64,000 bases of DNA from a virus, in IMG/VR virus record IMGVR_UViG_3300032222_000151, positions 1-64,000 of that record; one strand, 5' to 3'. The notes beneath the pieces are model-generated. The model had not been told where the DNA came from. It searched no databases and saw only the letters and a program-made list of their open reading frames with translations. The number at the start of each line of letters is the position of its first letter. Positions within the stretch are counted from its first letter, which is position 1. A program made the translations under genes and the position numbers. Positions 1,203-55,546 of the stretch are shown piece by piece.

Positions 1203-1231
1203 TTGACATTTCCCCAGTCCTAGCCTATAAT
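1203..1231 (+). promoter_or_regulatory. Consensus sigma70-type promoter, leaderless start
   Basis: TTGACA at 1203-1208 and TATAAT at 1226-1231 are separated by exactly 17 bp, a full match to the consensus. Six bases follow before the ATG at 1238, so the predicted transcription start coincides with the start codon. Confidence 0.85.
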
Positions 1232-1237
1232 TAGTAT

Positions 1238-1402
1238 ATGACCCAAACAATGAGAACAATAGACGAACTAGTCAATGAGATGTACATGGACAATGAGGCA
1301 CATCTCGAATACATGGAAAATATGAACGGTGGGGATTGTGATTGTAACATCCACACTACCTTAAATACAATAGTCAAATACTGGTGGGATGAGGAGAACT
1401 AA
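1238..1402 (+). CDS. Small acidic hypothetical protein (54 aa)
   Basis: Not recognised. It is a short Met-rich, acidic, probably helical protein (MTQTMRTIDELV...) with a CDC motif followed by a His (residues about 34-39) and a C-terminal YWWDEEN. The ATG is placed by the perfect promoter six bases upstream. It opens a run of overlapping genes, and its stop overlaps the next start (TAATG). Confidence 0.65.
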   Translation: MTQTMRTIDELVNEMYMDNEAHLEYMENMNGGDCDCNIHTTLNTIVKYWWDEEN

Positions 1403-1560
1403 TGTTAGGCTATGCTACTACTGATTTAGATGAGATGGTTAGTGCTATTCAGTCTGCTCTAACTACCGTGAATTCTGATGACGACCCTTGGCTATATAAT
1501 AATCTTTGGAAGGCTCAGGAGTTTCTCCAGGGCTTATGGGCAGAAGGGTACTTTGACTAA
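1402..1560 (+). CDS. Small hypothetical protein (52 aa)
   Basis: Not recognised. It starts inside the previous stop codon (TAATG) and ends in the same way at the next gene, so it fits a translationally coupled chain. GAGGAG at 1391-1396 serves as ribosome binding site. The protein is acidic with a Trp/Leu-rich C-terminal half (LWKAQEFLQGLWAEGYFD). Confidence 0.65.
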   Translation: MLGYATTDLDEMVSAIQSALTTVNSDDDPWLYNNLWKAQEFLQGLWAEGYFD

Positions 1561-1775
1561 TGTGGACTAAGTATAACTATCTCTGTACTGACTGTGATGC
1601 AATGATTGAGATTACTACTCAGGCTTATCCTGTTATTGATCCCGCTTGTACTTGCCGTGCCTCATCTCACATAATTTTCCTGGGGGTTGAAGATGGATAT
1701 GACCCTGATGAACCTGTGACTAGTATCACATACACAGAAGTTGTAAAAATCAACACGAACCCGTATAATTTATAG
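1560..1775 (+). CDS. Small protein with Cys pairs, possible zinc ribbon (71 aa)
   Basis: The protein has a CTDC pair near residue 9 and a CTC pair near residue 30, a pattern consistent with a metal-binding ribbon. No family is recognised. It is coupled to the gene before it by a TAATG overlap. Its last codons overlap the -10 box of the next transcription unit (TATAAT at 1764-1769). Confidence 0.65.
   Translation: MWTKYNYLCTDCDAMIEITTQAYPVIDPACTCRASSHIIFLGVEDGYDPDEPVTSITYTEVVKINTNPYNL
1741..1769 (+). promoter_or_regulatory. Promoter inside the 3' end of the preceding gene
   Basis: TTGTAA (1741-1746) and TATAAT (1764-1769) are 17 bp apart. The next ATG is seven bases after the -10 box, again predicting a leaderless or nearly leaderless message. 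Confidence 0.6.
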
Positions 1776-1776
1776 T

Positions 1777-1944
1777 ATGGACCTAAATACACTTAAAGAA
1801 TATATAAACATACATAAGATATCCCTTGAACAGGATTTAGCCTATGTAGCACAGCATGAGGATAACTCTGACATCATGTGCTCATATCTTGAAGGCTCTA
1901 TTGATGTCTGTACTGACCTATTGGAGTATATCAATGAGCAGTGA
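1777..1944 (+). CDS. Small hypothetical protein (55 aa)
   Basis: Not recognised. It is an acidic, probably helical protein starting MDLNTLKEYINIHK. It has no ribosome binding site, and its start is defined by the -10 box seven bases upstream. It overlaps the next gene by 11 bases. Confidence 0.6.
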   Translation: MDLNTLKEYINIHKISLEQDLAYVAQHEDNSDIMCSYLEGSIDVCTDLLEYINEQ

Positions 1945-2233
1945 GTATCCTTTTATACCGCCACATTTGGAAAAGGGTCTAGAGGACCTGTCCATACCAC
2001 TAATAGATTTAATACATGGTCATCTTAAGGTAGCCATGCTTGACGCAGAGCAAGCGCTATCAGAGGCTAAAGAAATTGAAGAAGCCAATGACTACTCAGA
2101 CGCTATGGAATCTATGGAGCGCACCTATGCAGAGGGCTACCTAGAGGCCTTGACAGAACTGTACTGCTTGACCTATAATTTATCTATAGACCGCAAACAG
2201 ATTGAGGAGAACCATGCCAAACTGGGTGTATAA
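1934..2233 (+). CDS. Acidic helical hypothetical protein (99 aa)
   Basis: Not recognised. The ATG at 1934 (MSSEYPFIPPHLEKG) overlaps the end of the previous gene and follows TTGGAG. The open frame extends upstream, but that part lies over the neighbouring gene in another frame. The sequence is rich in Glu, Ala and Leu and is predicted to be mostly helical. The C-terminus overlaps the next gene by 20 bases. Confidence 0.65.
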   Translation: MSSEYPFIPPHLEKGLEDLSIPLIDLIHGHLKVAMLDAEQALSEAKEIEEANDYSDAMESMERTYAEGYLEALTELYCLTYNLSIDRKQIEENHAKLGV

Positions 2234-2846: not shown

Positions 2847-2849
2847 GAC

Positions 2850-2878
2850 TTGACAACCTGCCCCAAAAATGAGATAAT
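2850..2878 (+). promoter_or_regulatory. Promoter upstream of the 2910 operon
   Basis: TTGACA (2850-2855), a 17-bp spacer and GATAAT (2873-2878). The first gene starts at 2910 behind AAGGAG, so this message has a leader of about 25 nt, unlike the leaderless units elsewhere in the window. Confidence 0.7.
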
Positions 2879-2909
2879 TGTAATACAGACCTAGACCCAA
2901 GGAGATAAA

Positions 2910-3747: not shown

Positions 3748-3787
3748 GTATTGGGTCACCTAGATTAATAGGGTGGAAGGGGCAGGC

Positions 3788-3815
3788 GTGGGGCTTGCTC
3801 TTTCCCCCACTTTTT
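3788..3815 (+). terminator. Rho-independent terminator
   Basis: GTGGGG pairs with CCCCAC across a short loop and is followed by TTTTT. It closes the 2910-3747 operon. A weak promoter (TTGCTC 3795-3800, 17 bp, TACAAT 3818-3823) overlaps it and could start the next unit. Confidence 0.7.
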
Positions 3816-4282: not shown

Positions 4283-4462
4283 CCTGGGCCCGAAAGGGCA
4301 CGTGCCATACTTTTATCAAATTGTCAAACCATAAAATCTTCAAACCAAGACATTACGAACCTCCAAAACCTTCCCCCTCCAGAAGATTACGATCCAAACC
4401 TTATATCCCCAAACCTTATACCATAGATATAAAGGTTTGTCAAACCATGTTATAATGATTAT
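4283..4462. other. Non-coding spacer rich in CAAACC and ATTACGA words
   Basis: No gene is seen. A small GCCC-GAAA-GGGC hairpin lies at 4288-4299. The remainder is built from repeated short words: CAAACC several times, ATTACGAAC at 4352-4360, ATTACGAT at 4386-4393. It ends in the -10 box of the next gene (TATAAT 4451-4456). A 20-base block around 4341-4362 is almost repeated at 5066-5086 beside the DnaA boxes. Confidence 0.5.
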
Positions 4463-4693
4463 ATGCCAAGAGATCACTTTGCTCAACTATCTAGACAAAC
4501 CTCACATAGACATGACCAACCTCATGATATAGTAACCTTTAATAAAGATATAAGTACTATATGTGGTATGTTGTATTCTATAGTTACTCTTAAGGCTTTC
4601 TTTCCTAAGTCCCCCGCCCCAGAAATGACTAACAATCCTGTTAAGGACGCTGCAAGCGGGGACTCAAAGTATACCCAATTACCCCTATGGTAA
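4463..4693 (+). CDS. Hypothetical protein, leaderless start (76 aa)
   Basis: Not recognised. The ATG lies six bases after TATAAT (4451-4456) with no ribosome binding site, matching the leaderless pattern of this genome. The -35 region is poor. The protein has a His/Asp-rich N-terminus and one short hydrophobic stretch near residues 33-46. An opposite-strand frame covers most of it, but it lacks a start signal. Reality is moderately likely. Confidence 0.45.
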   Translation: MPRDHFAQLSRQTSHRHDQPHDIVTFNKDISTICGMLYSIVTLKAFFPKSPAPEMTNNPVKDAASGDSKYTQLPLW

Positions 4694-5123: not shown

Positions 5124-5657
5124 CTAAACCACTCTAGGGTCAATCCACCAATCCTCAAATGGATATAGTGGGGAGTTGCATGTAACATTTTCTCTAACTA
5201 ACTCATATCCCAAACCAGATAATAACTCTTTCTGCCTATTCTTGATATCAAGGTTTGACGCACAGTAGTATAAATCATGTTCAAATGTGATAACAGAAAA
5301 CCTGTATTTTTCCAGGGGTAAAGCAAGTAATGCCTTAAGTGAGTTCTCTGCTGGCTCGATGTCTACTTGAAGGTAATCTATCTGCTTAGGCATATCGAGC
5401 ATATAGAACAAGGTCTCATAGTCAAATGTTGTGGCATCTGCCGTATAGCACTTATTAAACCTATTGGCGTTAAACTCATTGGCCCTATCAGGATCTATCT
5501 CAAATGAGACTCCTGTCCAACCATACTCCTTCTCTAGCATATATGTATTACTTATGTCTTTAGAGTGGTATGCTCCTATTTCTACATATACCCCGCTATT
5601 TTTGCCTTTAAGGGTATCTATTACGAACTGATCTTGACCTGCTTGACTGTATCCCAT
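5124..5657 (-). CDS. FkbM-like SAM-dependent methyltransferase (177 aa)
   Basis: The N-terminus SQAGQDQFVIDTL, then GVYVEIGAYHS (SAM-binding motif I), SNTYMLEKEYGWTGVSFEID and a later YLQVDIEPAENS match the FkbM methyltransferase family, which O-methylates sugars or small molecules. It resembles the gene at 42752-43336 along its whole length, including the shared LPLEKYRFSVITFEHD and EDWW.DP blocks. The start follows TATACT by six bases (leaderless). It is isolated on the - strand between the origin and a divergent small gene. Confidence 0.8.
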   Translation of the reverse strand: MGYSQAGQDQFVIDTLKGKNSGVYVEIGAYHSKDISNTYMLEKEYGWTGVSFEIDPDRANEFNANRFNKCYTADATTFDYETLFYMLDMPKQIDYLQVDIEPAENSLKALLALPLEKYRFSVITFEHDLYYCASNLDIKNRQKELLSGLGYELVRENVTCNSPLYPFEDWWIDPRVV

Positions 5658-5686
5658 ATACTAAGTATACCTGATATACTTAAACC

Positions 5687-5818
5687 ATGGAGCCTTTAGG
5701 ATATACACAATCTATGTTAAATGTACTATGCTTTGACTGTGGCGCTATGTATCAAGTGCCCTATGGGACATCTACCCCTACTATGGTTTGTCCTAAATGT
5801 ATTACGAACCCTTCTTGA
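5687..5818 (+). CDS. Small zinc-ribbon protein, leaderless (43 aa)
   Basis: The ATG lies six bases after TATACT (5675-5680). The product has CFDC and CPKC pairs about 18 residues apart, a minimal four-cysteine ribbon, probably nucleic-acid or protein binding. Its stop codon is part of the TTGACA box of the next promoter. Divergent from the methyltransferase, with only five bases between the two -10 boxes. Confidence 0.6.
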   Translation: MEPLGYTQSMLNVLCFDCGAMYQVPYGTSTPTMVCPKCITNPS

Positions 5819-5843
5819 CATTCCCCGCCAAACCTGAGATAAT
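5815..5843 (+). promoter_or_regulatory. Promoter for HNH gene, overlaps previous stop codon
   Basis: TTGACA (5815-5820), 17 bp, GATAAT (5838-5843), then six bases to ATG 5850. The TGA inside TTGACA ends the upstream gene, so stop codon and -35 box share bases. Confidence 0.75.
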
Positions 5844-5849
5844 GGTTTG

Positions 5850-6296
5850 ATGTATGCTAACTGTGGAACCTATGCTGGCTATCGTAAACATCATAATCAC
5901 AAGACTAAACCATGCCTTGAGTGTTTATCTGCAGCAAGTCTATACAACAGGTTGAGATATCAGAAAAACAATCGTGCTCATATAACAGCCAAGTATCGTG
6001 CTTCAAACCTTGATAAGGTAAGAGAGCGAGAGCGATCCAAGAATAGAAGACGCAGAGCAAACATTACGAACCCTTATAATGAATCCCAGGTCATCGCCTC
6101 TTATGGTGATATATGCTACTTATGTGGATTAGGCATTGATCTTCTGGCTCCCCGAAAATGTGGGATAGATGGTTGGGAGAATGGTTTGCACATAGACCAT
6201 GTTTTGCCTATATCTAAAGGTGGGGCTGATGCTTTAGAAAATGTTAGGCCTACGCATGGTTTGTGCAATCTAAAGAAATACGCAAATGTAGGATAG
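5850..6296 (+). CDS. HNH endonuclease (148 aa)
   Basis: The C-terminal half has CYLCG, then HIDHVLPISKGG (the His-rich beta hairpin of HNH nucleases), an Asn near NVRPTHG and CNLKK, i.e. the full zinc-plus-HNH arrangement. The N-terminus has a separate metal-like pattern (CGTYAGYRKHHNH...CLEC) typical of phage proteins with a GTxxGYxxH motif. Likely a free-standing phage HNH nuclease that nicks or cuts DNA. The start follows the -10 box by six bases; a TTG three bases earlier was rejected. Confidence 0.85.
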   Translation: MYANCGTYAGYRKHHNHKTKPCLECLSAASLYNRLRYQKNNRAHITAKYRASNLDKVRERERSKNRRRRANITNPYNESQVIASYGDICYLCGLGIDLLAPRKCGIDGWENGLHIDHVLPISKGGADALENVRPTHGLCNLKKYANVG

Positions 6297-6397
6297 TAAC
6301 CACTAGTGCCCGCTTAGGGCATAGGAAGGTTTGTTAACTCTATTTTGCGCCGAACTTTAAAACAAAGAACATAACTGATGTATGATACAATAAAATT

Positions 6398-6973
6398 ATG
6401 CCGAACGAATTTGACACCATATACGAAAACAATAGATGGGGTTATAAAAGCGGACCTGGATCAGACCCAGATCAGGCAAAAGTCTGGATAGATATGGTCA
6501 ACTCATTTCTAGAAAAAGAAGATGTTAAAACAGTCATGGATATTGGTTGTGGCGACTGGAGACTAGGACAAAAGTACAAACTAGACAACAAAACCTATAC
6601 TGGAATCGATATTAGTTCTGTTATTCTAGATGAAACAATGGCCTATAGCACAGATAATGTTAAGTTTATACATGGAGACTTTGAGTTTCTTGATGTTGAT
6701 CCAGTGGACTTAATAATCATAAAGGATGTCCTTCAGCATTTACCCAACTCAAAGGTAATCAATATTGTAAATAAGATTAAAAATCATGCAAGATATGCTT
6801 TATTTTGCGATATGTATATAAAGGTTAATGATAGAGAGTTAAACAGCGATATACCTATGGGAAGAGCCAGGCCTATAGATCTTTCAGAAGATCCATTCTT
6901 TTTTGACTTTGAAAAAATAGACAGATACAATGGAAAACAAATATCTTTATACAGGGAGAAAAGTTTTGAGTGA
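6398..6973 (+). CDS. Class I SAM-dependent methyltransferase (191 aa)
   Basis: Motif I is VMDIGCGDWRLG (about residues 46-57), followed by TGIDISS (motif II) and a post-motif DVLQHLP, a pattern of Methyltransf_11/25-type enzymes. Substrate is unknown. The start is leaderless: TACAAT (6386-6391) plus six bases. The gene overlaps a glycosyltransferase gene, so the pair may act on the same glycan or small molecule. The -35 region is weak. Confidence 0.8.
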   Translation: MPNEFDTIYENNRWGYKSGPGSDPDQAKVWIDMVNSFLEKEDVKTVMDIGCGDWRLGQKYKLDNKTYTGIDISSVILDETMAYSTDNVKFIHGDFEFLDVDPVDLIIIKDVLQHLPNSKVINIVNKIKNHARYALFCDMYIKVNDRELNSDIPMGRARPIDLSEDPFFFDFEKIDRYNGKQISLYREKSFE

Positions 6974-7775: not shown

Positions 7776-7803
7776 TAAAGTTGAAATGTGATATAATCTA
7801 TAT

Positions 7804-7929
7804 ATGAATAAATCTAAGTGCTTTTTTTGTGATAAGGATGCAACACATTACGATGTTGTAGTTGACCATGCCGATTATGTGGTTGCCGATGTGTGCTTAG
7901 ATCATTTATCTATGGGTCTCGTCTCTTAG
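7804..7929 (+). CDS. Small zinc-binding protein, leaderless (41 aa)
   Basis: The ATG follows TATAAT (7792-7797) by six bases. The product has CFFC near the N-terminus and CLDH near residue 31, a CxxC/CxxH metal site. The family is unknown. It ends just before the promoter of the next gene. Confidence 0.6.
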   Translation: MNKSKCFFCDKDATHYDVVVDHADYVVADVCLDHLSMGLVS

Positions 7930-7933: not shown

Positions 7934-7962
7934 TTGACTTTCTGACAGCATCCTGGTATTAT
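7934..7962 (+). promoter_or_regulatory. Promoter of the 7969-12149 gene chain
   Basis: TTGACT (7934-7939), 17 bp, TATTAT (7957-7962), six bases, ATG. Genes downstream overlap almost without a break to 12149, so this may drive much of that chain. Confidence 0.65.
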
Positions 7963-7968
7963 TAATAT

Positions 7969-8175
7969 ATGATCAATATGGAAATACCTGATCCATTCCA
8001 AACCTTTGTAGCCAAGAAGTATGCTAACGCCAAGGGTTATGTTCATGACTTCTTTACTGGTGAATGGTCTTATAAGTGTTTATCTTGTAAGGAAGAATTG
8101 ATTGGTCCATCCCGCAAAATTTTGACTAAGATTAGATTGTTTCATACCCGCAATGAGTGCCTTGGAGGATACTAA
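7969..8175 (+). CDS. Small zinc-finger-like protein (68 aa)
   Basis: The C-terminal half contains CLSC and, 19 residues later, HTRNEC, giving a CxxC...HxxxxC metal site. Probably DNA or protein binding; no family is recognised. Leaderless start. It ends in a TAATG overlap with the next gene, and GGAGG in its last codons is the ribosome binding site for that gene. Confidence 0.65.
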   Translation: MINMEIPDPFQTFVAKKYANAKGYVHDFFTGEWSYKCLSCKEELIGPSRKILTKIRLFHTRNECLGGY

Positions 8176-12151: not shown

Positions 12152-12180
12152 TTGACATACCGTGTCAAATATGGGATACT
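12152..12180 (+). promoter_or_regulatory. Promoter of the 12187 unit, leaderless
   Basis: TTGACA (12152-12157), 17 bp, GATACT (12175-12180), six bases, ATG. The spacing is identical to the promoters at 1203, 5815, 7934 and 13230. Confidence 0.75.
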
Positions 12181-12186
12181 TAAGTT

Positions 12187-12480
12187 ATGAATGTTTGGAA
12201 AGTAGTTGCAACAGACTCCAACTCTGTACTTAATGCTGAAGCCATTAAGATTCTTCAAAAGTTGGAAGATCACAAAAATAGACTTGAAATAGAAGAATAC
12301 AACAAACTACTTAAAAAGTTGGCTAAAAAGTTTCCTGACTTTAGGTCTCAGATCTATTCACTTAAGATTAGAAATGATAATGATGGAAACATGGAAAAGG
12401 CTGCAAGCCTTAAGGATCTTATGAAACTTTCGCATGCAGAAAGAAAGCATCAGATAAGGCAGGAGTATCCTCGAAAATGA
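12187..12480 (+). CDS. Helical hypothetical protein (97 aa)
   Basis: Not recognised. Lys/Glu-rich and predicted almost wholly helical, with a possible coiled coil at residues 20-50. Leaderless start. Overlaps the next gene by four bases. Confidence 0.65.
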   Translation: MNVWKVVATDSNSVLNAEAIKILQKLEDHKNRLEIEEYNKLLKKLAKKFPDFRSQIYSLKIRNDNDGNMEKAASLKDLMKLSHAERKHQIRQEYPRK

Positions 12481-12711: not shown

Positions 12712-13233
12712 ATGACAACAGACAGATCCTTATGGCACAAAATTTCAAACATAGATAGACAGATTAAGCAGAGTCAGGATGGCAACTGTTCTATTTGTGG
12801 TCCAGTTGGAGTTGGATATGATTCCTATAATAATCAGTTTTACTGTAGAGAAAAAGCAAGTAAGGCATTGGCAAAAAGAAAGGCCGATAACCCAGATTTT
12901 AATAAGTACATACAAAAACAAAAACAAAACCATAGATGGATGTATGTCTATAAGTTAGATCAAGATCAGGTTATTTCTATGTTTCAGGATCAAAATGGTC
13001 AGTGTTGTATATGCTTTTCTTCAATATCCTTAGAGACATCTGCACAAAATGCTGCACACATAGACCATGATCATAACTGTTGTAGCAATAATGCCAGCAG
13101 TAGTTCTCCTCTGTGTGGTAACTGCAACAGAGGATTGCTCTGTAGTAGGTGCAACCTTGCTATTGGAAATTTTAATGATGATATAGACTTGATGAAAAGT
13201 GCAATAGTCTATTTAGAAAAATATATTAGTTGA
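12712..13233 (+). CDS. Recombination endonuclease VII-like nuclease (173 aa)
   Basis: The C-terminal domain has CCIC, AHIDHDHNCC, then CGNCNRGLLCSRCNLAIGNF, the order of zinc ligands and His-metal finger residues of the endonuclease VII family (PF02945). T4 endonuclease VII resolves branched DNA before packaging. The N-terminal part has an extra CSICG motif, seen in longer phage relatives. The start at 12712 has only a weak ribosome binding site. Confidence 0.85.
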   Translation: MTTDRSLWHKISNIDRQIKQSQDGNCSICGPVGVGYDSYNNQFYCREKASKALAKRKADNPDFNKYIQKQKQNHRWMYVYKLDQDQVISMFQDQNGQCCICFSSISLETSAQNAAHIDHDHNCCSNNASSSSPLCGNCNRGLLCSRCNLAIGNFNDDIDLMKSAIVYLEKYIS

Positions 13234-13258
13234 CAAACCACAGACTTGCGTGTATAAT
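13230..13258 (+). promoter_or_regulatory. Consensus promoter, leaderless
   Basis: TTGACA (13230-13235), 17 bp and TATAAT (13253-13258), six bases to ATG 13265. The TGA inside TTGACA is the stop codon of the endonuclease VII gene. Confidence 0.82.
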
Positions 13259-13264
13259 AAATAT

Positions 13265-13366
13265 ATGATCTGCAAAACCTGCGGTATGAATAAAGAAAAC
13301 ATTGACTACTGGGATAACCATCAAACTATGAGTGATTACAAGGTGTGGTGTGCCAAGAGAGCCTAA
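13265..13366 (+). CDS. Mini zinc-binding protein (33 aa)
   Basis: A 33-residue product starting MICKTCGMNKE with a later WCAKRA; CxxC plus His and Cys could bind one metal ion. The perfect promoter and exact leaderless spacing are the main support. Related short C-x2-C proteins that start M.CKTCG are frequent in actinophages. Confidence 0.55.
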   Translation: MICKTCGMNKENIDYWDNHQTMSDYKVWCAKRA

Positions 13367-13420
13367 GATTACGAAGATGGACTGGAGAGCCTTGGACCAA
13401 TGCCATGATATACTGAGATT

Positions 13421-14065
13421 ATGTTTACTGATAACCCGAATATAGAGAAAATCCACGAAGGTGTTTACATCTATAGAAACTTTTTAGATAAAAACTTTGT
13501 TGAAAAGATATCTGCAAAGATATTAGAGATAGGTGATGGGGTAGACCTAAAGCATTCTAACAACTGGTATGAGGACAAAGTTTATCAGATGGAAGAAATG
13601 GCAGAATCTTATAAAAAAGCATCTGAACTTCTACTTCCAGAATTGTATATAGTTCCATCTATTATGATACTTATAACAAAACCTGGCGATGAGATGTTTG
13701 TGCATACGGATAGTCCAGAAGAGGATCAGCATGTTGATAGCCCTGATCCATTTGAAACATGTCACATAGTTGACTATGGAATAGTCATATACTATGGTGA
13801 TTGGACTGGCGGAGATGTATTTTATCCAGACCTTGGAATATCCGTATCTCCAAGGCCAGGAGATCTATTAATTCATAAATCACGCAATCCGTATAGTCAT
13901 GGCGTTAGAAAGATAGAGTCTGGAGTTCGTGGGGCACAATCTCTTTTTGCAGTCACAGCAGAAAAAAACCCAGGAACATTTGTTGTTTATGGGTCTAAAG
14001 AGTTTAAGGATATAGAGGAGAGCAATACCCCTCTAGCATGGACAGATGCATTAATAAAAAGATAG
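13421..14065 (+). CDS. Fe(II)/2-oxoglutarate oxygenase, P4H-like (214 aa)
   Basis: The iron ligands H95-T-D97 and H150 and the 2-oxoglutarate-binding R160 can all be placed, with GGDVFYP between them, as in prolyl-4-hydroxylase-type oxygenases. It is one of eight such genes here and most like the one at 16612 (shared AEKNPGTF near the C-terminus versus TEKNPGTF). Substrate unknown. The start lies six bases after TATACT. Confidence 0.88.
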   Translation: MFTDNPNIEKIHEGVYIYRNFLDKNFVEKISAKILEIGDGVDLKHSNNWYEDKVYQMEEMAESYKKASELLLPELYIVPSIMILITKPGDEMFVHTDSPEEDQHVDSPDPFETCHIVDYGIVIYYGDWTGGDVFYPDLGISVSPRPGDLLIHKSRNPYSHGVRKIESGVRGAQSLFAVTAEKNPGTFVVYGSKEFKDIEESNTPLAWTDALIKR

Positions 14066-16611: not shown

Positions 16612-17307
16612 TTAGTAAGGATCAACAGCGTCAGGTAAACCTGAAGTCACTGGATCGTTCCATTTTGGAGAACACCAAACTTTAGTTCTGTCTTCTTGTG
16701 TTTTAGTACATGAATAATACTCGTCTGTTTTATAATTTGGAAAAGTTCCTGGATTTTTCTCTGTTTTTAATGCAAAGTTAGAGTATGTATATCTTGTTCC
16801 AGATGTTACAATATTAACCCCATGCTCATAATCTTGCAATGCTCCATGAATAACAAGATCTCCTGGCTCAACTGCTATTTCAATTTCAAGTTTTGGGTAG
16901 TAAACTTCTCCACCAGTATAGTCTCCAAAATATACGCAAACTCCGTAATCAAGTACGCAGCATGTAGACCATGTGTCTGGCAATGTCAGATCATCATGAT
17001 GCCCTTCTCCTGGGCTATCCCAGTGTGGTTGCATACTTCCACCCTCTTTAAAATGTAGGACCTGTAGTTGTGGATGCATTACATGTGTTGGATATAAAAC
17101 ATCAGACAGTTTTTCCCAGATTGTAAACATTTCTGGAACATGGTTAATAATTCCGTGGTCAGCAACATCAAATGGATGAGCAAGAGACTCGTTTGTTTTA
17201 TCTTCAAGTATCTTATTAAACTTTTCAACCTCTTCCTGAGTAAGGAAGTTTGGCACATACCAAAGTTTTTCTGCTAACTGCTGGATTCCTGGGGTTTCGT
17301 TTATCAT
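16612..17307 (-). CDS. Fe(II)/2-oxoglutarate oxygenase, P4H-like (231 aa)
   Basis: Iron ligands H95-W-D97 and H162 and the 2OG-binding R172 are in place, with TGGEVYYP between. Closest in this window to the gene at 13421. Leaderless: TACAAT (17314-17319 on the other strand) is six bases before the ATG. Substrate unknown. Convergent with the membrane peptide gene that ends five bases away. Confidence 0.88.
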   Translation of the reverse strand: MINETPGIQQLAEKLWYVPNFLTQEEVEKFNKILEDKTNESLAHPFDVADHGIINHVPEMFTIWEKLSDVLYPTHVMHPQLQVLHFKEGGSMQPHWDSPGEGHHDDLTLPDTWSTCCVLDYGVCVYFGDYTGGEVYYPKLEIEIAVEPGDLVIHGALQDYEHGVNIVTSGTRYTYSNFALKTEKNPGTFPNYKTDEYYSCTKTQEDRTKVWCSPKWNDPVTSGLPDAVDPY

Positions 17308-17343
17308 ATAGTTATTGTATCATAGATTTACCTATGATATAAT
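17308..17343. promoter_or_regulatory. Divergent promoter pair
   Basis: The - strand -10 box TACAAT (17314-17319) and the + strand TATAAT (17338-17343) point away from each other with exactly 18 bases between. Each lies where the -35 of the other would be. The same 18-base layout is seen at 21268-21297. Confidence 0.6.
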
Positions 17344-17682: not shown

Positions 17683-18244
17683 GGTATTGCTTGTGTTTAC
17701 CAGAAAATTCTGGACTGAGTAGCCCTATGCTTACTGTATACCTTGGATTTCCTTTAAGCATAGTAAGAGAGTGAGGGATTGACGGAGGAAATATAAAAAT
17801 ATCTCCAGCCTCTGGTTTATAGGTTATTCCTAAATCTTTAAACTTTATTTCTGCACCAGAAAAATCATCATTTATGTGCAAGTTTACCATTATATGATTT
17901 TCATCTGGACTATCAGAGTGATATGACATAAAGTTTCCATCTCTTAGTTTAGAAACAACAAAAGCATCTTGTCTGGTAACTATTCCAAAGTTATTATAGT
18001 GCTGCATATACTCTAGGATGCTATCAAAGACTGTACTATAAAACATATTTTTTAGTTTTATAGAACTGTATGTATCTTCTTTTGTAAACACCATAGGGAC
18101 AAACATTGTTAAGTGTGGTCTTGCTATATCTGAAATGTCTTGGAAATGAAATGAGTCTTCATTTACTTTTTCAATTAGATCGATCCATTCTTGTGAATCA
18201 ATCTTAGTTTTAAACTTAACAATTCTATCGCCTAGTATTTCCAT
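17669..18244 (-). CDS. Fe(II)/2-oxoglutarate oxygenase (191 aa)
   Basis: H109-S-D111, H158 and R168 form the iron and 2OG sites; NDDFSGAEIKF stands where the others have a GG-FYP strand. The IPHSLTML segment around the distal His is typical of the double-stranded beta helix. TATACT lies seven bases before the ATG. Substrate unknown. Confidence 0.87.
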   Translation of the reverse strand: MEILGDRIVKFKTKIDSQEWIDLIEKVNEDSFHFQDISDIARPHLTMFVPMVFTKEDTYSSIKLKNMFYSTVFDSILEYMQHYNNFGIVTRQDAFVVSKLRDGNFMSYHSDSPDENHIMVNLHINDDFSGAEIKFKDLGITYKPEAGDIFIFPPSIPHSLTMLKGNPRYTVSIGLLSPEFSGKHKQYLIED

Positions 18245-18246
18245 AT

Positions 18247-18275
18247 TTGACAGTATATCACATAACCTGTATACT
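18247..18275 (+). promoter_or_regulatory. Promoter of tRNA cluster
   Basis: TTGACA (18247-18252), 17 bp, TATACT (18270-18275). The predicted start is 1-2 bases before tRNA-Met. It overlaps the divergent -10 box of the oxygenase gene (18252-18257). Confidence 0.75.
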
Positions 18276-19760: not shown

Positions 19761-19802
19761 CTTCTAGGTGGTATAATATATATGAGTGTTCGAGAGGAAA
19801 TT

Positions 19803-20693
19803 ATGATAAAAATAACACCAATAGATTATCCAGGGTTTGACAATGTTTTTGATAACATAGACTTTTATAAAGAAAAGTTTATAAAAGATTCTGTTATTGT
19901 GTTTAGAGGAGCAAACCTTTCTCTTGAAGATCAAAAACTATTTCATTATAAACTCGGAGATTTCTTTAAATGGCAGACAACAAAAACTGAAGACAATTAC
20001 TATAGAGAGACTCACTCTCATAACAACATGGTTAGTATTGCCAAAGAAGATGAAATCATGCTTGGCTGGCATGTAGAGCACTGTTATTACGACAACCCCA
20101 TAGTTGCTGGCACATGGAATATGTATCACCTACAGGCCCCTCCAGGGGCTGGTAAAACCTATTTTGTAGATACGTCTGCTGTATACAATCTGCTAGATAA
20201 TAAATCAAAAGATTTTTTAAAAAAATGCAGCCTCAATGCAAAAAATTTTGGCCTAGAAGAAGTGTTCCCTCCATATAAAACAGTAGTTGATCATTGGATA
20301 ACTGGAGTCCCAGTAATCAGAATGCCAATAGAGGAGCACTGGTCAGAGTTTGGACCAAATGATGAAAACTATATAAATAGCAACCATGAAAGTTATGAAG
20401 TAAATATTTTGCATTCGGTTAATGACAAGTTGCCTACAAAAGAAGAATACAAAATTTTTTCAGAGATTGCAAAAATGATAGGCAACATAGTAAAAAATAA
20501 CGAGTCTATTAGGATTGTTCATCAATGGGAGCAAGGCGATTTAGTTTTTATGGATGCATTTAAATTAGCACATGCGGTTACTGGTGGGTTTAAACCAGAA
20601 GACCGTGAGTTCTCTGGAATTTGGGGACAAAGAGATCCGCTTACAAACGATAGAGTCTTAGAGAATAAGTATACACATCAAAGCAATAGTTAA
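19803..20693 (+). CDS. TauD/TfdA-family 2-oxoglutarate oxygenase (296 aa)
   Basis: GWHVEHCYYDNP (about residues 88-99) supplies the first iron ligands as H-x-E rather than H-x-D, a variant also known from clavaminate synthase. FKLAHAVTGG near residue 250 gives the distal His, and an Arg follows in DREFSGIWGQR. It is longer and of a different subfamily from the seven P4H-like enzymes here. Start at ATG 19803 behind GAGAGGA; TATAAT at 19772-19777 gives a leader of about 19 nt. Confidence 0.82.
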   Translation: MIKITPIDYPGFDNVFDNIDFYKEKFIKDSVIVFRGANLSLEDQKLFHYKLGDFFKWQTTKTEDNYYRETHSHNNMVSIAKEDEIMLGWHVEHCYYDNPIVAGTWNMYHLQAPPGAGKTYFVDTSAVYNLLDNKSKDFLKKCSLNAKNFGLEEVFPPYKTVVDHWITGVPVIRMPIEEHWSEFGPNDENYINSNHESYEVNILHSVNDKLPTKEEYKIFSEIAKMIGNIVKNNESIRIVHQWEQGDLVFMDAFKLAHAVTGGFKPEDREFSGIWGQRDPLTNDRVLENKYTHQSNS

Positions 20694-20824
20694 TCTGTTT
20701 TCTTTGGATGCTTTGGTTCATATGGAGCAATCTTAGACTTGACTCTTCCATCTTTATATAGTCTAACAATCCATCCATCTTTAATCTGAATAGGATTAAA
20801 TGCTGCTGCTTTTTTCTTTGGCAT
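20690..20824 (-). CDS. Small basic protein (44 aa)
   Basis: MPKKKAAAFNPIQIKDGWIV is followed by a basic tail; nothing is recognised. It starts in a TAATG overlap with the upstream gene at 20824 and ends against the convergent oxygenase gene, sharing four bases with it. Coupling is the main support. Confidence 0.55.
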   Translation of the reverse strand: MPKKKAAAFNPIQIKDGWIVRLYKDGRVKSKIAPYEPKHPKKTD

Positions 20825-21261
20825 TACTTTGCCAACTTAAATGGAGAGTCAATCCAACTATCTGACTTAGCAACTGGAACGCAGTTTGGAACCATCTTGC
20901 CATCTTGTTCTTTCATACCTCTTTGAACATATCCATCCCAGCAAGGAGAAACCTTGCCAATTGATGCATCATACATGGCCATCGCAACTTCTGAATCTTC
21001 AGGCTCAACCATTAATGGTGGTATCTGAACATACATAGACATTGCACATGCAGTGTATAGTCTTGTTGCTTCCCAGAATCCGCTTTCTTCTTGTTCAAAC
21101 AACTGAATCATTACCGCAGGATTTTCTGCACTTGCTTCCATATAATATTCTGTTTCTGGATTACCAAGAGCACCTTCATACATGACATGAACTACTTGTC
21201 CTATATGGGTATCTCCTTCTCCACCGTGGGAGGTCATTGCAAAATCGCCTTCTTTTAGCAT
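20824..21261 (-). CDS. Conserved phage protein with CWDGY...VPNCVP motif (145 aa)
   Basis: The C-terminal part contains CWDGYVQRGMKEQDG and MVPNCVPV, a motif pair that recurs in phage proteins of several sizes (CxxGYxQxGMKxKxGxxVPNC) without known role. The N-terminus looks like a small beta domain (MLKEGDFAMTSHGGEGDTHI). The leaderless start at 21261 lies six bases after TATAAT; the upstream TTG was rejected. Confidence 0.75.
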   Translation of the reverse strand: MLKEGDFAMTSHGGEGDTHIGQVVHVMYEGALGNPETEYYMEASAENPAVMIQLFEQEESGFWEATRLYTACAMSMYVQIPPLMVEPEDSEVAMAMYDASIGKVSPCWDGYVQRGMKEQDGKMVPNCVPVAKSDSWIDSPFKLAK

Positions 21262-21303
21262 ACTATTATTATAGCACAACATGTTCTAGTGTATAATGAG
21301 TAT
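21262..21303. promoter_or_regulatory. Divergent leaderless promoter pair
   Basis: The - strand TATAAT (21268-21273) and + strand TATAAT (21292-21297) are back to back with 18 bases between, each six bases from its own ATG (21261 and 21304). Neither has a good -35; each -10 occupies the other's -35 position, as at 17314-17343. Confidence 0.7.
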
Positions 21304-21879
21304 ATGAACATAATTAGGCCATATAACAATGAAATAGTGGTAGTAGAAGACTTTATAAGCGAAGAAGAGGTAGGCATTATCAATGACCTCTCATCAAAAG
21401 ACCCTGGCCTATGGGAAGGATCAAATGATGGATCTGGCCTTAAGGAGTGGTACGGAAACCAACTAAGAATAGAGCCAGATAACCTAAAAAGTTCTTATTG
21501 GTACTATAGGGATTTGCTTGATTCTATACAGAAAAGATCTGAATCAATTTTTACTGAATACTATGGCATATCAGACTTTGAGTACCTTCCTATTAACTCT
21601 TTATCACGCAGAATTGGCCCTGGGCTTGGTGTTCATACCGACGAAATAGATCCAGAGCACCCTCAGTATAATCCAAATGAAAAGATAATTACTCATGGTT
21701 TTGTTGTTTACATAAATGATGATTACGATGGTGGAGAAATATTTTATCCTAATAAAAATATATCTATTAAGCCCATTGCAAGGTCTCTAGTAATGCACCC
21801 TGGGAATAAAGAATATGAACATGGTGTTAATGAAGTCAGGGGATCTACTAGGTACAGCCTTTCTTGGTGGACAAGATAA
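21304..21879 (+). CDS. Fe(II)/2-oxoglutarate oxygenase, P4H-like (191 aa)
   Basis: H111-T-D113, H173 and R183 form the active site, with DDYDGGEIFYP between. It shares its N-terminal PYNNEIVVVEDF and the core with the next gene (PFNNEIIVINNF), so the two are a tandem duplication. Leaderless start; upstream in-frame residues were rejected. Confidence 0.88.
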   Translation: MNIIRPYNNEIVVVEDFISEEEVGIINDLSSKDPGLWEGSNDGSGLKEWYGNQLRIEPDNLKSSYWYYRDLLDSIQKRSESIFTEYYGISDFEYLPINSLSRRIGPGLGVHTDEIDPEHPQYNPNEKIITHGFVVYINDDYDGGEIFYPNKNISIKPIARSLVMHPGNKEYEHGVNEVRGSTRYSLSWWTR

Positions 21880-21881
21880 AA

Positions 21882-22481
21882 ATGGAAATAAATAAACCAT
21901 TTAATAACGAGATAATAGTTATAAATAATTTTTTATCTAAAGATGAAATTCAGTCAATATTTAATTATATTGAAAAAGAAAAGCAAATGCATAAACCTGA
22001 AGGAATATCTTCTGAATATTTTAATAATAGACTTATACAACTACCAACTGAACAGAATATTGAAACAATTTCTGAAAAAGAAGGCACAAAAGATATTGCA
22101 AAGATTTATCTATTAAATAAAAACAATATAGTCAATAAAATTAACAATATTTTAAAAGCAATATCTGAAGAAAATCTTTATTTAACTGGAATTGAAAATT
22201 TAATTTATTCTGCTGATAAGGGAATGCCAACACACTTTGATAATAGCCCAGAAAATTTAGAAACAAATACTCACTATGGATTAGTTCTTTATTTAAACGA
22301 TGATTATGATGGTGGAGAACTTTACTATCCAAAATTAGAAATTGAGTATAAACCTAAATGTGGAGACCTTGTAATTCACCCAGGAACAGAAGAATATACT
22401 CATGGTGTTAGAGATATTTACAATGGAACAAGGTACGCTATTACTATTTTTGCTTTTACAAAAAATGAGAGCAGTTTATAG
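21882..22481 (+). CDS. Fe(II)/2-oxoglutarate oxygenase, tandem paralog (199 aa)
   Basis: H118-F-D120, H174 and R184 with DDYDGGELYYP between. Start MEINKPFNNEIIV two bases after the previous stop; no strong ribosome binding site, so coupling to the upstream paralog is likely. Notably Asn/Ile/Lys-rich, more AT-rich than its partner. Confidence 0.86.
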   Translation: MEINKPFNNEIIVINNFLSKDEIQSIFNYIEKEKQMHKPEGISSEYFNNRLIQLPTEQNIETISEKEGTKDIAKIYLLNKNNIVNKINNILKAISEENLYLTGIENLIYSADKGMPTHFDNSPENLETNTHYGLVLYLNDDYDGGELYYPKLEIEYKPKCGDLVIHPGTEEYTHGVRDIYNGTRYAITIFAFTKNESSL

Positions 22482-24177: not shown

Positions 24178-24459
24178 TTACTCCATTGTTAATGATTGCC
24201 ATGTCATTCCCCAGTCATCCTTACTCTTGTGGCTTGAAAACTCTTTAGATATTTCTCCATTTTCTAAGTATACTCCGCCCCAAACTCCCCACTCTTTTCC
24301 TGATATGCCAACAGAAAAACAGTCTTTTCTAACTGAGCATCCAGAACAAAGTGCATCTATTGCTGGCCTGAGAAGTTCATCTTCTTCGTACTTGTCAAAG
24401 AATAAGTTTGTGTCATAGTCTAAGCAGACTGCATCGTCTTTCCATTTATGCTTATTCAC
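24178..24459 (-). CDS. WhiB-like iron-sulfur transcription factor (93 aa)
   Basis: Four Cys in the WhiB pattern are visible: one in AVCLDYD and three in LCSGCSVRKDCF (C-x2-C-x5-C), followed by the turn EWGVWGGVYL. The family binds a 4Fe-4S cluster and works with the primary sigma factor; it is confined to Actinobacteria and their phages. Phage WhiB proteins can alter host gene expression. The usual basic C-terminus is weak here. Confidence 0.92.
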   Translation of the reverse strand: MNKHKWKDDAVCLDYDTNLFFDKYEEDELLRPAIDALCSGCSVRKDCFSVGISGKEWGVWGGVYLENGEISKEFSSHKSKDDWGMTWQSLTME

Positions 24460-31695: not shown

Positions 31696-31720
31696 GTCTG
31701 GCCTCCTTTGTCTCTTATAT

Positions 31721-31749
31721 ATTATAGCACCTTACCTGAATATTGTAAA
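31721..31749 (-). promoter_or_regulatory. Promoter for the endolysin
   Basis: On the - strand TTTACA (31749-31744), 17 bp, TATAAT (31726-31721), with about 20 nt to the ribosome binding site and start. It lies partly inside the end of the carbamoyltransferase gene and may give late lysis expression of its own. Confidence 0.7.
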
Positions 31750-33165
31750 GTTATATTCTTTTTCCCACTTAATAATGTCAGTCTCATCATTAAGAAGTGG
31801 CTGACCTTTTATATTAAGGCTAGTGTTGAGCAATACTGGAACACCAGTCTCAAGATAAAACCTATTTATAACTCTGTATAAACCACGATGTTGATTTCTA
31901 TTTACTGTTTGAACCCTTGATGTTCCGTCAGCATGAACAACTGATGGTATCTTGTCTGGCTGAAGGCACTTAACTGTATACTGCATATAAGGGCTTGCAA
32001 AGTCCATGTCAAACCATTTAGAGGCGCACTCTTCAAGAACTACTGGAGCAAAAGGTCTAAACAACTCTCTTTGTTTAATTAAATTAACTTTGTCTTTTAT
32101 TAATGGATCTCTTGGGTCAGCCAGTATACTTCTATTTCCAAGGGCTCTTGGACCATACTCTGCTCTGCCTGATGCCACTGCTACTATTCCATTTTTTAAT
32201 ATACCGTCCACAATTTGCTGAACAGGATACTCTCCTCCAAGATCATAACCAAGATATGGAGTCTTCCAGTCAAGATGCTTTCCGTATAGGGCTGCTGCAG
32301 CACCCAAAGAACTACCAGCATCTCCAGGGTTAGGCATGATCCATATCATATCAAATATATTCCATAGCAATGTGTTTGCTGATGAGTTAAGTGCACAACC
32401 ACCCATAAATACTAAATTCTTTTTACCAGTAATAGAATAGGCCATATGCATAAAATCATTTAGTCTTTGCTGATATACAACTTGAACTGCTGCAGCAATA
32501 TCAAACCTATCTTGCTCAGTTATAGGAATACCCCAGTCATTAATTCCTTTATGAAAGTTATATTTTTGTTTTGAATGGGATGGGAAATACTCATCAACCT
32601 CTTTGTAATATCTTTTCCAGTCTCCATAAGCAGCCATACCCATCATAATATACTCTTCTTGGTTCGGCATTAGTCCAATCAGTTGGGTAAAAGCAGAATA
32701 GAATAAGCCAAAACTAACTGGATAGTTTTGCTTATACTTAAGCCTAATTTTTTCACCCTCTCCAACCCAAATTGTTGAGGTATTAAATTCACCAATTGCA
32801 TCTAATACTACAATACATGCATCATTAAATGCGCTAGTATAGTAACCAGCAGATGCATGCGAGTAGTGGTGCCCAAAGTTTTTTCTTGGCAAGTCTCCAA
32901 GTTCTGTAGACTCAAACCATGGTCTATCTCCTCCAAATCCACCACGAGTTTTTACTCTAAGTTTCTTAAGTAAAGGTTTTTCGTAGTAAGCAATCTGATC
33001 TGGATATCCATATTGCAGGGCATCTTTAATCAGTCCTTTGTTTGTGAACCAGTCATTTTTTTGCTTACTATATCTTTCTGCATGCCCAGCAAAAAGTATC
33101 TCTCCATCTTTAATTAAAGATACTGATGCGTCATGTGTGGTTTCATTAACTCCAAGGATTAACAA
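31732..33165 (-). CDS. Carbamoyltransferase, NodU/CmcH (TobZ) family (477 aa)
   Basis: N-terminal LGVNETTHDASVSLI, the metal/nucleotide-site FGHHYSHASAGYY and the C-terminal SGRAEYGPRALGNRSILADP are family signatures. It transfers a carbamoyl group from carbamoyl phosphate via ATP to a sugar or antibiotic hydroxyl. Phage copies are known, mostly in cyanophages. Slightly shorter than TobZ. Its neighbour is an SGNH hydrolase, so glycan or cell-surface modification is the likely theme. Confidence 0.9.
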   Translation of the reverse strand: MLILGVNETTHDASVSLIKDGEILFAGHAERYSKQKNDWFTNKGLIKDALQYGYPDQIAYYEKPLLKKLRVKTRGGFGGDRPWFESTELGDLPRKNFGHHYSHASAGYYTSAFNDACIVVLDAIGEFNTSTIWVGEGEKIRLKYKQNYPVSFGLFYSAFTQLIGLMPNQEEYIMMGMAAYGDWKRYYKEVDEYFPSHSKQKYNFHKGINDWGIPITEQDRFDIAAAVQVVYQQRLNDFMHMAYSITGKKNLVFMGGCALNSSANTLLWNIFDMIWIMPNPGDAGSSLGAAAALYGKHLDWKTPYLGYDLGGEYPVQQIVDGILKNGIVAVASGRAEYGPRALGNRSILADPRDPLIKDKVNLIKQRELFRPFAPVVLEECASKWFDMDFASPYMQYTVKCLQPDKIPSVVHADGTSRVQTVNRNQHRGLYRVINRFYLETGVPVLLNTSLNIKGQPLLNDETDIIKWEKEYNFTIFR

Positions 33166-35539: not shown

Positions 35540-35724
35540 TAGAACTCCTTTATTTTAAATACTACCTGGCAAGGATCTCCGCCAGACTCCCACTCTTCTT
35601 GCTCTTCATCGCTCATGTATGGATCTCCATCATGTGTATTACAGAATGGCTCTGTAATCCATCCACGATCAATACCATTATTTATCCATATCTCAAACTC
35701 TAAAGAATCATCGTCGCTTATCAT
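35539..35724 (-). CDS. Small acidic conserved protein (61 aa)
   Basis: GWITEPFCNTHDGDPYMSDE with a later GGDPC is a motif I associate with small actinobacterial and actinophage proteins. One or two metal-binding sites are possible (Cys, His, Asp). Function unknown. Perfect leaderless promoter. Overlaps the protease start by one base. Confidence 0.75.
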   Translation of the reverse strand: MISDDDSLEFEIWINNGIDRGWITEPFCNTHDGDPYMSDEEQEEWESGGDPCQVVFKIKEF

Positions 35725-35730
35725 ATAATA

Positions 35731-35759
35731 ATTATACCTTTAAGCACTGATGATGTCAA
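35731..35759 (-). promoter_or_regulatory. Perfect promoter on the - strand, leaderless
   Basis: TTGACA (35759-35754), 17 bp, TATAAT (35736-35731), six bases, ATG 35724. Both boxes match consensus. The -35 lies in the end of the Ntn-hydrolase gene. It should drive the small acidic gene, the protease and those that follow. Confidence 0.85.
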
Positions 35760-36264
35760 CTGGACCCATGCAGGATGGGTTAAATTTTATTGCAGCATTT
35801 ACTGCTTGGTTAACTCTGTTTCTTGCATTTTTTTGTTTATCTGTTGCATATAGCACACCATAGGCATACTCTGCTCCAGAACCTATTGCAAGATACGGAA
35901 GCATATATTTTGATAGTGACATGTCACCAGTTGAATGTTCGTAGATCTCACCACGAACAGCAATAATTAGCCCTAAGTCTCCATCTTTAGATGTATCAAC
36001 CCAGAACTCATTATAAAATTCTTTAAGTTCTTTAATAAACCTTGTCTGCATAAACTTATCTGTATCTTTAATATTAGGTGGTGTTGGTTTAAAGTTATAA
36101 CGGATTCTTTCTCCGTCCATTGATCCAGCATACCCAATTAAGTATGGGCCAATCTTCCAAACCTTTGGAGCAGTAAGTGCTAGAATAGTCCCATCATCTG
36201 ATGCTCCACGATCTCCAGCCATATAAATCTTATCTTCATGGCGTAAAGCAACAATACAGGTCAT
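35740..36264 (-). CDS. Proteasome beta/HslV-like Ntn hydrolase (174 aa)
   Basis: MTCIVALRHEDKIYMAGDRG presents Thr2 as the N-terminal nucleophile after Met removal, followed by the Asp of GDR and the Lys of APKVWKIG, in the order and spacing of HslV and proteasome beta subunits; YAIG..SGAEYAYGVLYA near residue 130 matches the conserved SGxxxA helix. Phage relatives exist but their substrates are unknown. It might process virion or host proteins. No partner ATPase is seen. Confidence 0.8.
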   Translation of the reverse strand: MTCIVALRHEDKIYMAGDRGASDDGTILALTAPKVWKIGPYLIGYAGSMDGERIRYNFKPTPPNIKDTDKFMQTRFIKELKEFYNEFWVDTSKDGDLGLIIAVRGEIYEHSTGDMSLSKYMLPYLAIGSGAEYAYGVLYATDKQKNARNRVNQAVNAAIKFNPSCMGPVDIISA

Positions 36265-53762: not shown

Positions 53763-53971
53763 TATCCTTCAGCAGCCTCCGATTGGGCTTCAAGAATCTT
53801 TGCAGTTAGTTTATCTTCAACAAACTTGTAGACTCGCTCAAAAGCCTGATCAGTGTTTTCTCCATCACGCTTTGAATCTACAACTCCAAGATCTAGTCTT
53901 AGTGATTGAAAGTTTCCTAGGTTAAGTGTGTACCCAAGTGTTACAGATACCTTTGTTGATTCGTTTTCCAT
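53762..53971 (-). CDS. Conserved small phage protein (69 aa)
   Basis: MENESTKVSVTLGYTLNLGN, then SLRLDLGVVDSKRDGENTDQ and a C-terminal helix (ERVYKFVEDKL). I recognise the pattern from actinophage replication regions; role unknown. Start behind GAAGGG. The longer upstream frame overlaps the MerR-like gene and was rejected. Confidence 0.7.
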   Translation of the reverse strand: MENESTKVSVTLGYTLNLGNFQSLRLDLGVVDSKRDGENTDQAFERVYKFVEDKLTAKILEAQSEAAEG

Positions 53972-53984
53972 TTTATACCCTTCG

Positions 53985-54527
53985 TTAAATAGATTCGTTC
54001 CAAATTGGAATAAACCGTCCATCTTCTGTTCTCGTATATGTAAGTATACCATCGCCCATTCTGCGTGTCAACTCTTGTTTGCTAGGCGTAATATCATTTG
54101 TAATTAACTTATCTTTTCTTGGTCTGCCCATATGATAAGAAGCAAGTATATCACGAATCTCTCTTACTTGGGATTCTGAGTAATACGACCTTACCTGAAA
54201 TCCTCTTGCACCACCCTTTTGAGAACCCGTTGGGAAAGGAATAACTCCTCGCTTCATTAAATCTGGTAGATATTTTTTATGACGATTAACTAAATCAGCA
54301 GTCTGACCTACTGTATATGCTCGTTCTCTTTTATTTTTAAACTCATTAATTAGACAACTCTCAATCTGATCTTTGGTAATATTATAAACAGACATAATTC
54401 CATTAGACTTATTGAGATGATGTATTCTAACAAGGTCTCCGTTAAGAAACCAAACCTTTTTGTTACCTGGTATTACAGGTGACTCATTGTATTTTTCGCT
54501 CTCAATTGTTCCCTTTTTAGTAACCAT
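53985..54527 (-). CDS. MerR-like helix-turn-helix protein (180 aa)
   Basis: RAYTVGQTADLVNRHKKYLP, followed by LMKRGVIPFPTG and YYSESQVREIRDILA, is a winged MerR-type DNA-binding domain in the middle of the protein. The N-terminus may be a small beta domain (VWFLNGDLVRIHHL), the C-terminus resembles a second binding region (GRPRKDKLI). Probably a regulator of early or replication genes. Confidence 0.78.
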   Translation of the reverse strand: MVTKKGTIESEKYNESPVIPGNKKVWFLNGDLVRIHHLNKSNGIMSVYNITKDQIESCLINEFKNKRERAYTVGQTADLVNRHKKYLPDLMKRGVIPFPTGSQKGGARGFQVRSYYSESQVREIRDILASYHMGRPRKDKLITNDITPSKQELTRRMGDGILTYTRTEDGRFIPIWNESI

Positions 54528-54664
54528 TGTCCCTCCAATGTGTGGCTAGGTGGGTGGAAGAAAAATCTCATTCCGCAAAGCATACAATAAATCTCTATAT
54601 GATTAATCTCTGTATACTGCCTATCTACAAACATTCTTCCTTTGCATTTTTTACATGAAATCAT
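54473..54664 (-). CDS. Small zinc-ribbon protein (63 aa)
   Basis: MISCKKCKGRMFVDR with a later YCMLCGMRFFF gives a classic CxxC...CxxC ribbon. Overlaps the MerR-like gene by 55 bases and touches the tail gene upstream. The ribbon supports it as real despite the overlap. Confidence 0.65.
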   Translation of the reverse strand: MISCKKCKGRMFVDRQYTEINHIEIYCMLCGMRFFFHPPSHTLEGQWLLKREQLRAKNTMSHL

Positions 54665-55107
54665 TAATTAGGTATTCCAACTACTATTAGGTTAATTCCA
54701 ATACTAGTATCTCCACCAGTATTAAACTTAACAGTTCCTTCTACCTTAGATGTTGATACGCTTTTTAGCGTTACCGTGACATCTTTACCAGCATCTGTAT
54801 TTCCTATATTAATTGGTGTTGCAGTTACCACAGGTGCGAATTTAAAGTCCGTTGGGAAGTCATAGGAGAATGACTGAGAGGATCCAGCGGTCTGGGTTGT
54901 ACTTGTAGTTACCTGAACGTATCCACCGATTATACGGGCCTCTGAAGCCTTTACACTCTGCTTTCCAGAAGTAGGGGTGTCAACAGTTACATACTTATAT
55001 GTTGAAGGTGATACCTGAACAGACAGATCATTAATAGCCTTAACAATCTGGTAGATGTATGTAACATCTAAGGGCTGTCCTCTTTCTGGTACGGGTAGAA
55101 TTGCCAT
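54664..55107 (-). CDS. Putative tail-associated/receptor-binding protein (147 aa)
   Basis: After a short helix (DVTYIYQIVKAINDLSVQVS) the protein is beta-rich with many Thr/Ser, ending VGIPN, like the head domain of a tail fibre or a small virion protein. It is the last of the tail genes. Start six bases after TATAAT (55119-55114), so it may have its own promoter. Function inferred from position. Confidence 0.65.
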   Translation of the reverse strand: MAILPVPERGQPLDVTYIYQIVKAINDLSVQVSPSTYKYVTVDTPTSGKQSVKASEARIIGGYVQVTTSTTQTAGSSQSFSYDFPTDFKFAPVVTATPINIGNTDAGKDVTVTLKSVSTSKVEGTVKFNTGGDTSIGINLIVVGIPN

Positions 55108-55114
55108 ATTATAA

Positions 55115-55546
55115 TTATACCAGAGACCTTACTCCAGAATCATAAACCTTAATTGATGAGTTTATTTCTGGCTTAATCGAAGATATCTGTACAACAACTC
55201 TTACTGAGGCTGTACCATTTTTTAAAAATGAATAACTTGAGGTGTTCGATGTTCCAACATACGATGGGGCTGCACCATCAAATCCAGCAAAAACATCATA
55301 CTGAACTTGGATTGCGACATCTGAACCATTTGACCAGTTTACAAGAATTGTATTTCCAATAACATTTAAATCTCCTGGCAAGACCAATACGGGCTGAGAT
55401 CCAACTAAAAATATTTGAGACCACGCAGACTTTCTGTTTTTATCTTCTGCAACAAGTCTAAATCTTGCCACTCTACCATTTTCAGATGTTACTTTTCCTA
55501 AGAACTCTTTCTTTACGATAACATTCTTTATTCCTGGATCAGCCAT
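55115..55546 (-). CDS. Tail protein with fibronectin-III-like fold (143 aa)
   Basis: KSAWSQIFLVGSQPVLVLPG and NTILVNWSNGSDVAIQVQYD look like an FN3-type beta sandwich (W...Y..Y pattern), as often found in phage tail-tip proteins. Coupled by overlap with the tail gene upstream. Function inferred. Confidence 0.65.
   Translation of the reverse strand: MADPGIKNVIVKKEFLGKVTSENGRVARFRLVAEDKNRKSAWSQIFLVGSQPVLVLPGDLNVIGNTILVNWSNGSDVAIQVQYDVFAGFDGAAPSYVGTSNTSSYSFLKNGTASVRVVVQISSIKPEINSSIKVYDSGVRSLV

Follow-up and report, generated by a model that had tools for sequence, protein, structure and literature searches.

Predicted leaderless start codons with actinobacterial spacing and two promoter classes in a freshwater-type phage genome

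The phage described here very probably uses the leaderless geometry known from Actinobacteria, with -10 hexamers much nearer to consensus than those of the Nanopelagicales genomes examined and with one further core element added, either TTGACA at 17 bp among early promoters or TGn among virion genes. With the -10 hexamer stopping six bases short of an ATG, transcription would begin on that ATG, and the leaderless mRNA would be translated by the host ribosome. Many promoters of early genes carry the added TTGACA, and nearly all of those before virion genes carry the extended -10 (TGn). About two dozen phage genes start where their mRNA is itself expected to start. A wider picture, in which a large clade of freshwater actinophages combines one leaderless geometry with -35/-10 promoters for many early and replication genes and extended -10 promoters without -35 for virion genes, and a phage WhiB protein switches the host sigma-A between them, is doubtful.

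The phage and its candidate hosts

The window covers the opening 64 kb of the 118,809-bp virus record IMGVR_UViG_3300032222_000151 (the whole phage, G000). The final 123 bases of the record are a copy of the initial 123, so the assembly closes. This is a tailed phage; its genes include those for tail proteins, a DnaB-like helicase, a DnaE-like polymerase, and the large terminase, and at least 600 stretches were matched in a terminase scan of IMG/VR. The nearest isolates for both polymerase and terminase are the Streptomyces BE phages (Stanwilliamsviridae), with approximately 54% identity each. A WhiB-like gene at 24178..24459 (-; PF02467, 40.6 bits), an actinophage marker and a candidate binder of sigma-A region 4, points to an actinobacterial host; PF02467 is above the cut-off in the phage and in three of four relatives, and in an alignment of the phage protein with WhiB1 the four cysteines and the GVWGG turn are conserved. 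The phage is a freshwater or lake-type relative of the Streptomyces BE phages, predicted to infect Actinobacteria.

Host assignment below the phylum is weak. The sole cellular terminase match (63% identity) is on a Nanopelagicales MAG contig (L108, SHUQ01000020.1, 16968-22109), where host genes of ErpA-like and DUF59-like type (Fe-S) come directly after the terminase near the contig end. Because phage genes abut the Fe-S genes there, the junction may have arisen in assembly, and the contig, either a chimera or a real insertion, was downgraded as host proof.

The published signature of actinobacterial leaderless genes is TANNNT with its first T approximately 12 bp upstream of the start (Zheng 2011, PMC3160421). 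The host-order genomes are higher in GC and exact TATAAT-N6-ATG is too rare in them, so TANNNT at candidate starts was used. Three Nanopelagicales genomes, the terminase MAG and two others, have a sharp TANNNT peak at six bases (21, 24, and 28 sites; 0-10 at most other distances), covering 13-27% of genes. TGn is rare at their leaderless starts, each genome having between 0 and 5 cases, and a -35 was found in none of the three. The phage therefore uses the actinobacterial rule with stronger core elements, and the layout is not special to the phage, the candidate hosts using the same geometry.

Six-base spacing and the leaderless reading

The distance d, i.e., the number of bases between the end of the -10 hexamer and the start codon, was scanned without gene calling over the whole 118.8-kb phage for TATAAT and ATG, with ORFs of at least 30 codons. 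The first-pass annotation had proposed a scan against shuffled controls and related phages, and the peak stands out against the shuffles and recurs in the relatives. TATAAT lies at d = 6 in 15 cases, compared with a mean of 0.55 in 40 Markov shuffles, at d = 7 in 3, and at d = 25 in 6, which forms a second bump. TATACT likewise peaks at d = 6 (5 sites), while GTG and TTG starts in the same phage scan have at most a trace of the peak. Long stretches of four relatives are alike, with pooled TATA[ACT]T peaking at d = 6 (24, 18, 6, and 13 sites). A TANNNT -10 approximately 6 bp before the start codon occurs above chance.

At position -1, 54 of the 61 leaderless starts have T or C. Among SD-led starts this holds for only 62 of 179, and A is the prevailing base. 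Pyrimidines at -1 and purines at +1 are preferred at mapped start sites of M. tuberculosis (PMC3898074); the T or C at -1 fits transcription starting on the A of the ATG. The genes had been described as having no ribosome binding site, and nearly all of the listed starts that were gene-called indeed show no SD match; 5657 and 35724 have matches of only 4-5 bases, located within the promoter, and for 1238 the gene call was placed at a later ATG. Leaderless mRNA appears to be the best reading of the d = 6 starts, and its predicted start on the ATG has good support from the d = 6 peak, the -1 base, and the orthologues. The spacing, earlier called striking, is less so than claimed; it is normal actinobacterial geometry.

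It is highly improbable that the promoters are real and the proteins start downstream at an SD-led codon. Several ORFs on the list are small and have only weak coding character (4463 +, 76 aa; 5687 +, 43 aa; 13265 +, 33 aa), as such a reading would have it, but more than one phage, and the orthologues too, show spacing tuned to the ATG, 4463 and 13265 themselves have d = 6 orthologues, and the bases at -1 and +1 match transcription beginning on the ATG. That AT-rich hexamers came to lie near ATG by chance, in a genome of 38% GC, has next to no probability, for although TATAAT is frequent in AT-rich DNA, the shuffles never exceeded 4 at any distance.

The spacing had also been put forward as the rule for first genes, which is too strong. 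The phage has 77 candidate first genes, of which 14 start leaderless and 34 follow an SD of at least 5 bases; with the second bump at 25-26 bases, which represents a short-leader promoter class, this makes leaderless starts one of two classes and not a rule. Many phage promoters serve SD genes via short leaders. One example is at 31696..31760 (-), with a one-mismatch -35 at 17 bp, TGnTATAAT, and a 25-nt gap with AAAGGAGG, preceding the ATG of the CHAP endolysin at 31075-31695 (-). At 31732-33165 (-) lies a Nol-like carbamoyltransferase gene (PHROG 1601, 345 bits).

Promoters of the window

The hexamers of the 16 listed d = 6 sites and two d = 7 sites (1777, +; 18244, -) were confirmed by direct reading of the sequence, as was TTGACA or TTGACT exactly 17 bp from the -10 at 1238, 5850, 7969, 12187, 13265, and 35724 (-). 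One such promoter is at 1203..1240 (+), where TTGACA (1203-1208), N17, TATAAT (1226-1231), and N6 precede ATG 1238. The same arrangement is found at 5815..5852 (+), before an HNH endonuclease gene (TTGACA 5815-5820, N17, GATAAT, N6, ATG 5850); at 7934..7971 (+; TTGACT, N17, TATTAT, N6, ATG 7969); at 12152..12189 (+; TTGACA, N17, GATACT, N6, ATG 12187); at 13230..13267 (+), before a 33-aa ORF (TTGACA, N17, TATAAT, N6, ATG 13265); and at 35722..35759 (-; TTGACA 35754-35759, N17, TATAAT, N6, ATG 35724). Directly upstream of this last gene, 35740-36264 (-) has a weak PF00227 (proteasome-subunit) match over its first 48 residues.

TTGACA had been noted to sit on the preceding stop codon. This holds at 5815-5820, where the TGA inside it is the stop of the upstream ORF, and at 13230, where the TGA ends the 12712-13233 gene; as a general design, it was rejected, with only 2 of 52 sites. 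TTGACA at 17 bp is likewise a minority feature and does not belong to a single module. Promoters with a -35 and promoters with an extended -10 form separate classes, divided by gene module, and the most frequent upstream element is TGn (57 of 113 sites). In the window, TGn accompanies the starts at 4451..4465 (+; TATAAT, N6, ATG 4463; without -35), 7792..7806 (+; TGnTATAAT, N6, ATG 7804), 13409..13423 (+; TGnTATACT, N6, ATG 13421), 18244..18257 (-; TGnTATACT, N7, ATG 18244), and, at the end of the virion block, 55105..55119 (-; TGnTATAAT, N6, ATG 55107; without -35). Further starts are at 1764..1779 (+; TATAAT 1764-1769, N7, ATG 1777), 6386..6400 (+; methyltransferase; TACAAT, N6, ATG 6398), and 17307..17319 (-; TACAAT, N6, ATG 17307).

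Two leaderless pairs are divergent. At 5657..5689, TATACT-N6-ATG 5657 (-) and TATACT-N6-ATG 5687 (+) have -10 boxes separated by 5 bp. At 21259..21306, ATG 21261 (-) and ATG 21304 (+) are 42 bp apart, and the -10 of each promoter falls within the -35 region of the other. Divergent leaderless pairs are also present at loci of the candidate-host genomes G031, G036, and G011, with starts mostly 30-61 bp apart; at this distance the promoters of a pair overlap, in the hosts as in the phage. A TauD-like dioxygenase gene and two 2OG-Fe(II) oxygenase genes are clustered at 19782-22481, one of them behind a divergent leaderless promoter.

Conservation among orthologues

Orthologous starts retain the -10/N6/ATG arrangement while their flanks diverge, at 35-93% protein identity (e.g., 7804, 35724, 99535, 106920, and 107656). 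For 7804, d = 6 is kept in three of three orthologues (83-93% identity), and for 35724 the -35, -10, and N6 are all kept in the relatives L034, L049, and L077. The hexamer and six bases are kept in both orthologues of 99535, of 106920 (one at 35% protein identity), and of 107656. The start at 1238 retains d = 6 in L093 and L102 (49% protein identity), 4463 has a d = 6 orthologue in L102 (64% identity), and 13265 has one in L093 that also carries TTGACA. The orthologue of 1777 in L093 has d = 6, while the phage itself has N7. At 55107, the L100 orthologue retains the -10 but carries AGGAGGAATT, an SD leader, ahead of its ATG, and the apparent change between leaderless and SD-led start may have come about by a small insertion or deletion. 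The L096 orthologue of 72487 also has an unchanged -10 with an SD leader ahead of the ATG, another apparent change of this kind.

Promoter classes of early and virion genes

In five phages, all intergenic TATAAT and TATACT hexamers with a gene after them were counted, allowing at most one mismatch in the -35; promoters of the virion block were taken as late and those outside as early, lateness being inferred from gene function. A -35 accompanies 31 of the 106 early promoters and 4 of the 77 from the virion block (p = 2e-5), and TGn, after removal of near-duplicates, in 41 of 46 virion leaderless promoters and in 13 of 34 others (p = 2e-6), although these p-values overstate independence because the five phages are related. 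For G000 alone, the -35 is found in 7 of 23 versus 1 of 21 (p = 0.048), and the difference in TGn, with leadered promoters included, is not significant (p = 0.14). Across 80 loci around the portal-like gene, TGn is present in 27 of 27 non-redundant leaderless promoters. The information content of the virion set consists of TnTGn and the -10, with no motif near -35. Late promoters that lack a -35 and have an extended -10, the trait associated with appropriation of sigma region 4, are found in these phages. At 72455-72493 of G000 (approximately 8455-8493 of L004, -), a strong terminator hairpin runs directly into an extended -10 leaderless promoter.

The split may have no regulatory meaning: virion genes are packed, with promoters set against terminators or the ends of coding sequences, a -35 would be hard to retain there, and TGn would compensate for strength. 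This reading is given slightly less than an even chance. It is favoured by the 72493 promoter, which stands immediately after a hairpin of -18.5 kcal/mol, and by M. tuberculosis, where extended -10 promoters are the strongest (PMC3898074); however, stable hairpins precede only 11 of the 46 late leaderless promoters, and the tight-gap early promoters of 13265 and 12187 retain TTGACA.

The other reading is a promoter switch, in which a phage factor, most likely WhiB, would occupy sigma-A region 4 and disfavour -35 promoters, so that virion genes with TGnTATAAT and without a -35 win late. The -35 and TGn counts above, including those at the portal-like gene, are as such a switch would have them, no other motif substitutes for the -35 in the late set, and WhiB is present, with no sigma-70 region 2 gene found. 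Extended -10 promoters are established to be less dependent on sigma region 4 (cited in PMC12288462). Thermus phage P23-45 gp39 displaces region 4 while its extended -10 middle and late promoters are spared (PMC7403470), and Wbl proteins bind sigma-A region 4 (PMC10245118). With the conserved residues of the phage WhiB, these region-4 precedents make a WhiB-driven change to -35-independent late transcription plausible. Its probability is nevertheless put low, as known Wbl proteins are able to activate as well as repress, the counts come from related phages and are not fully independent, and the split was not seen in Streptomyces phage Gilson. Promoter strength with tight packing behind terminators is at least as likely as the WhiB switch.

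Three other proposals were rejected: a phage sigma factor setting promoter type, as there is no Sigma70_r2 match in the five genomes; a MotA-like box in place of the -35 of late promoters, as no informative motif is found there; and a late extended -10 class shared by the whole family, as it was not seen in Gilson.

Comparison with known systems

The -10/N6/ATG rule has practical use in fixing start codons and marking transcription units in abundant uncultured phages and Nanopelagicales, and the class split makes a concrete prediction on late gene control and on the role of phage WhiB proteins. Leaderless genes of Actinobacteria (Zheng 2011, PMC3160421; Cortes 2013, PMC3898074) share with the phage the TANNNT spacing, the lack of SD, and the pyrimidine at -1 and purine at +1, and they are a minority in both, with approximately a quarter of genes in M. 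tuberculosis. The phage differs in its near-consensus TATAAT, almost exclusive use of ATG, and a -35 in the early subset; TGn is present at about half of its sites compared with 7% in M. tuberculosis (PMC3898074).

The middle and late promoters of Thermus phage P23-45 are extended -10 and -35-independent, like the late-side promoters of the phage, but there gp39 is the factor (PMC7403470), whereas WhiB is only a candidate here. The Stanwilliamsviridae (BE phages, e.g., Gilson) share polymerase and terminase at approximately 54% identity as well as WhiB, with a weaker peak at d = 6-7; Gilson has few leaderless starts and, unlike the phage, no extended -10 late class was seen in it. A leaderless start was predicted earlier for Adephagia gene 90 (PMC11373665). 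The Cluster O mycobacteriophages (Corndog; PMC4351075) have predicted leaderless SigA promoters, PL1, PR2, and PL2, with +1 on the start codon and, as in the phage, a divergent leaderless pair. Leaderless starts in actinophages have therefore been predicted already, and what is new here is their scale, conservation, and class split: Cluster O has approximately three such promoters, while the phage has approximately two dozen, conserved in relatives and divided into -35 and extended -10 classes.
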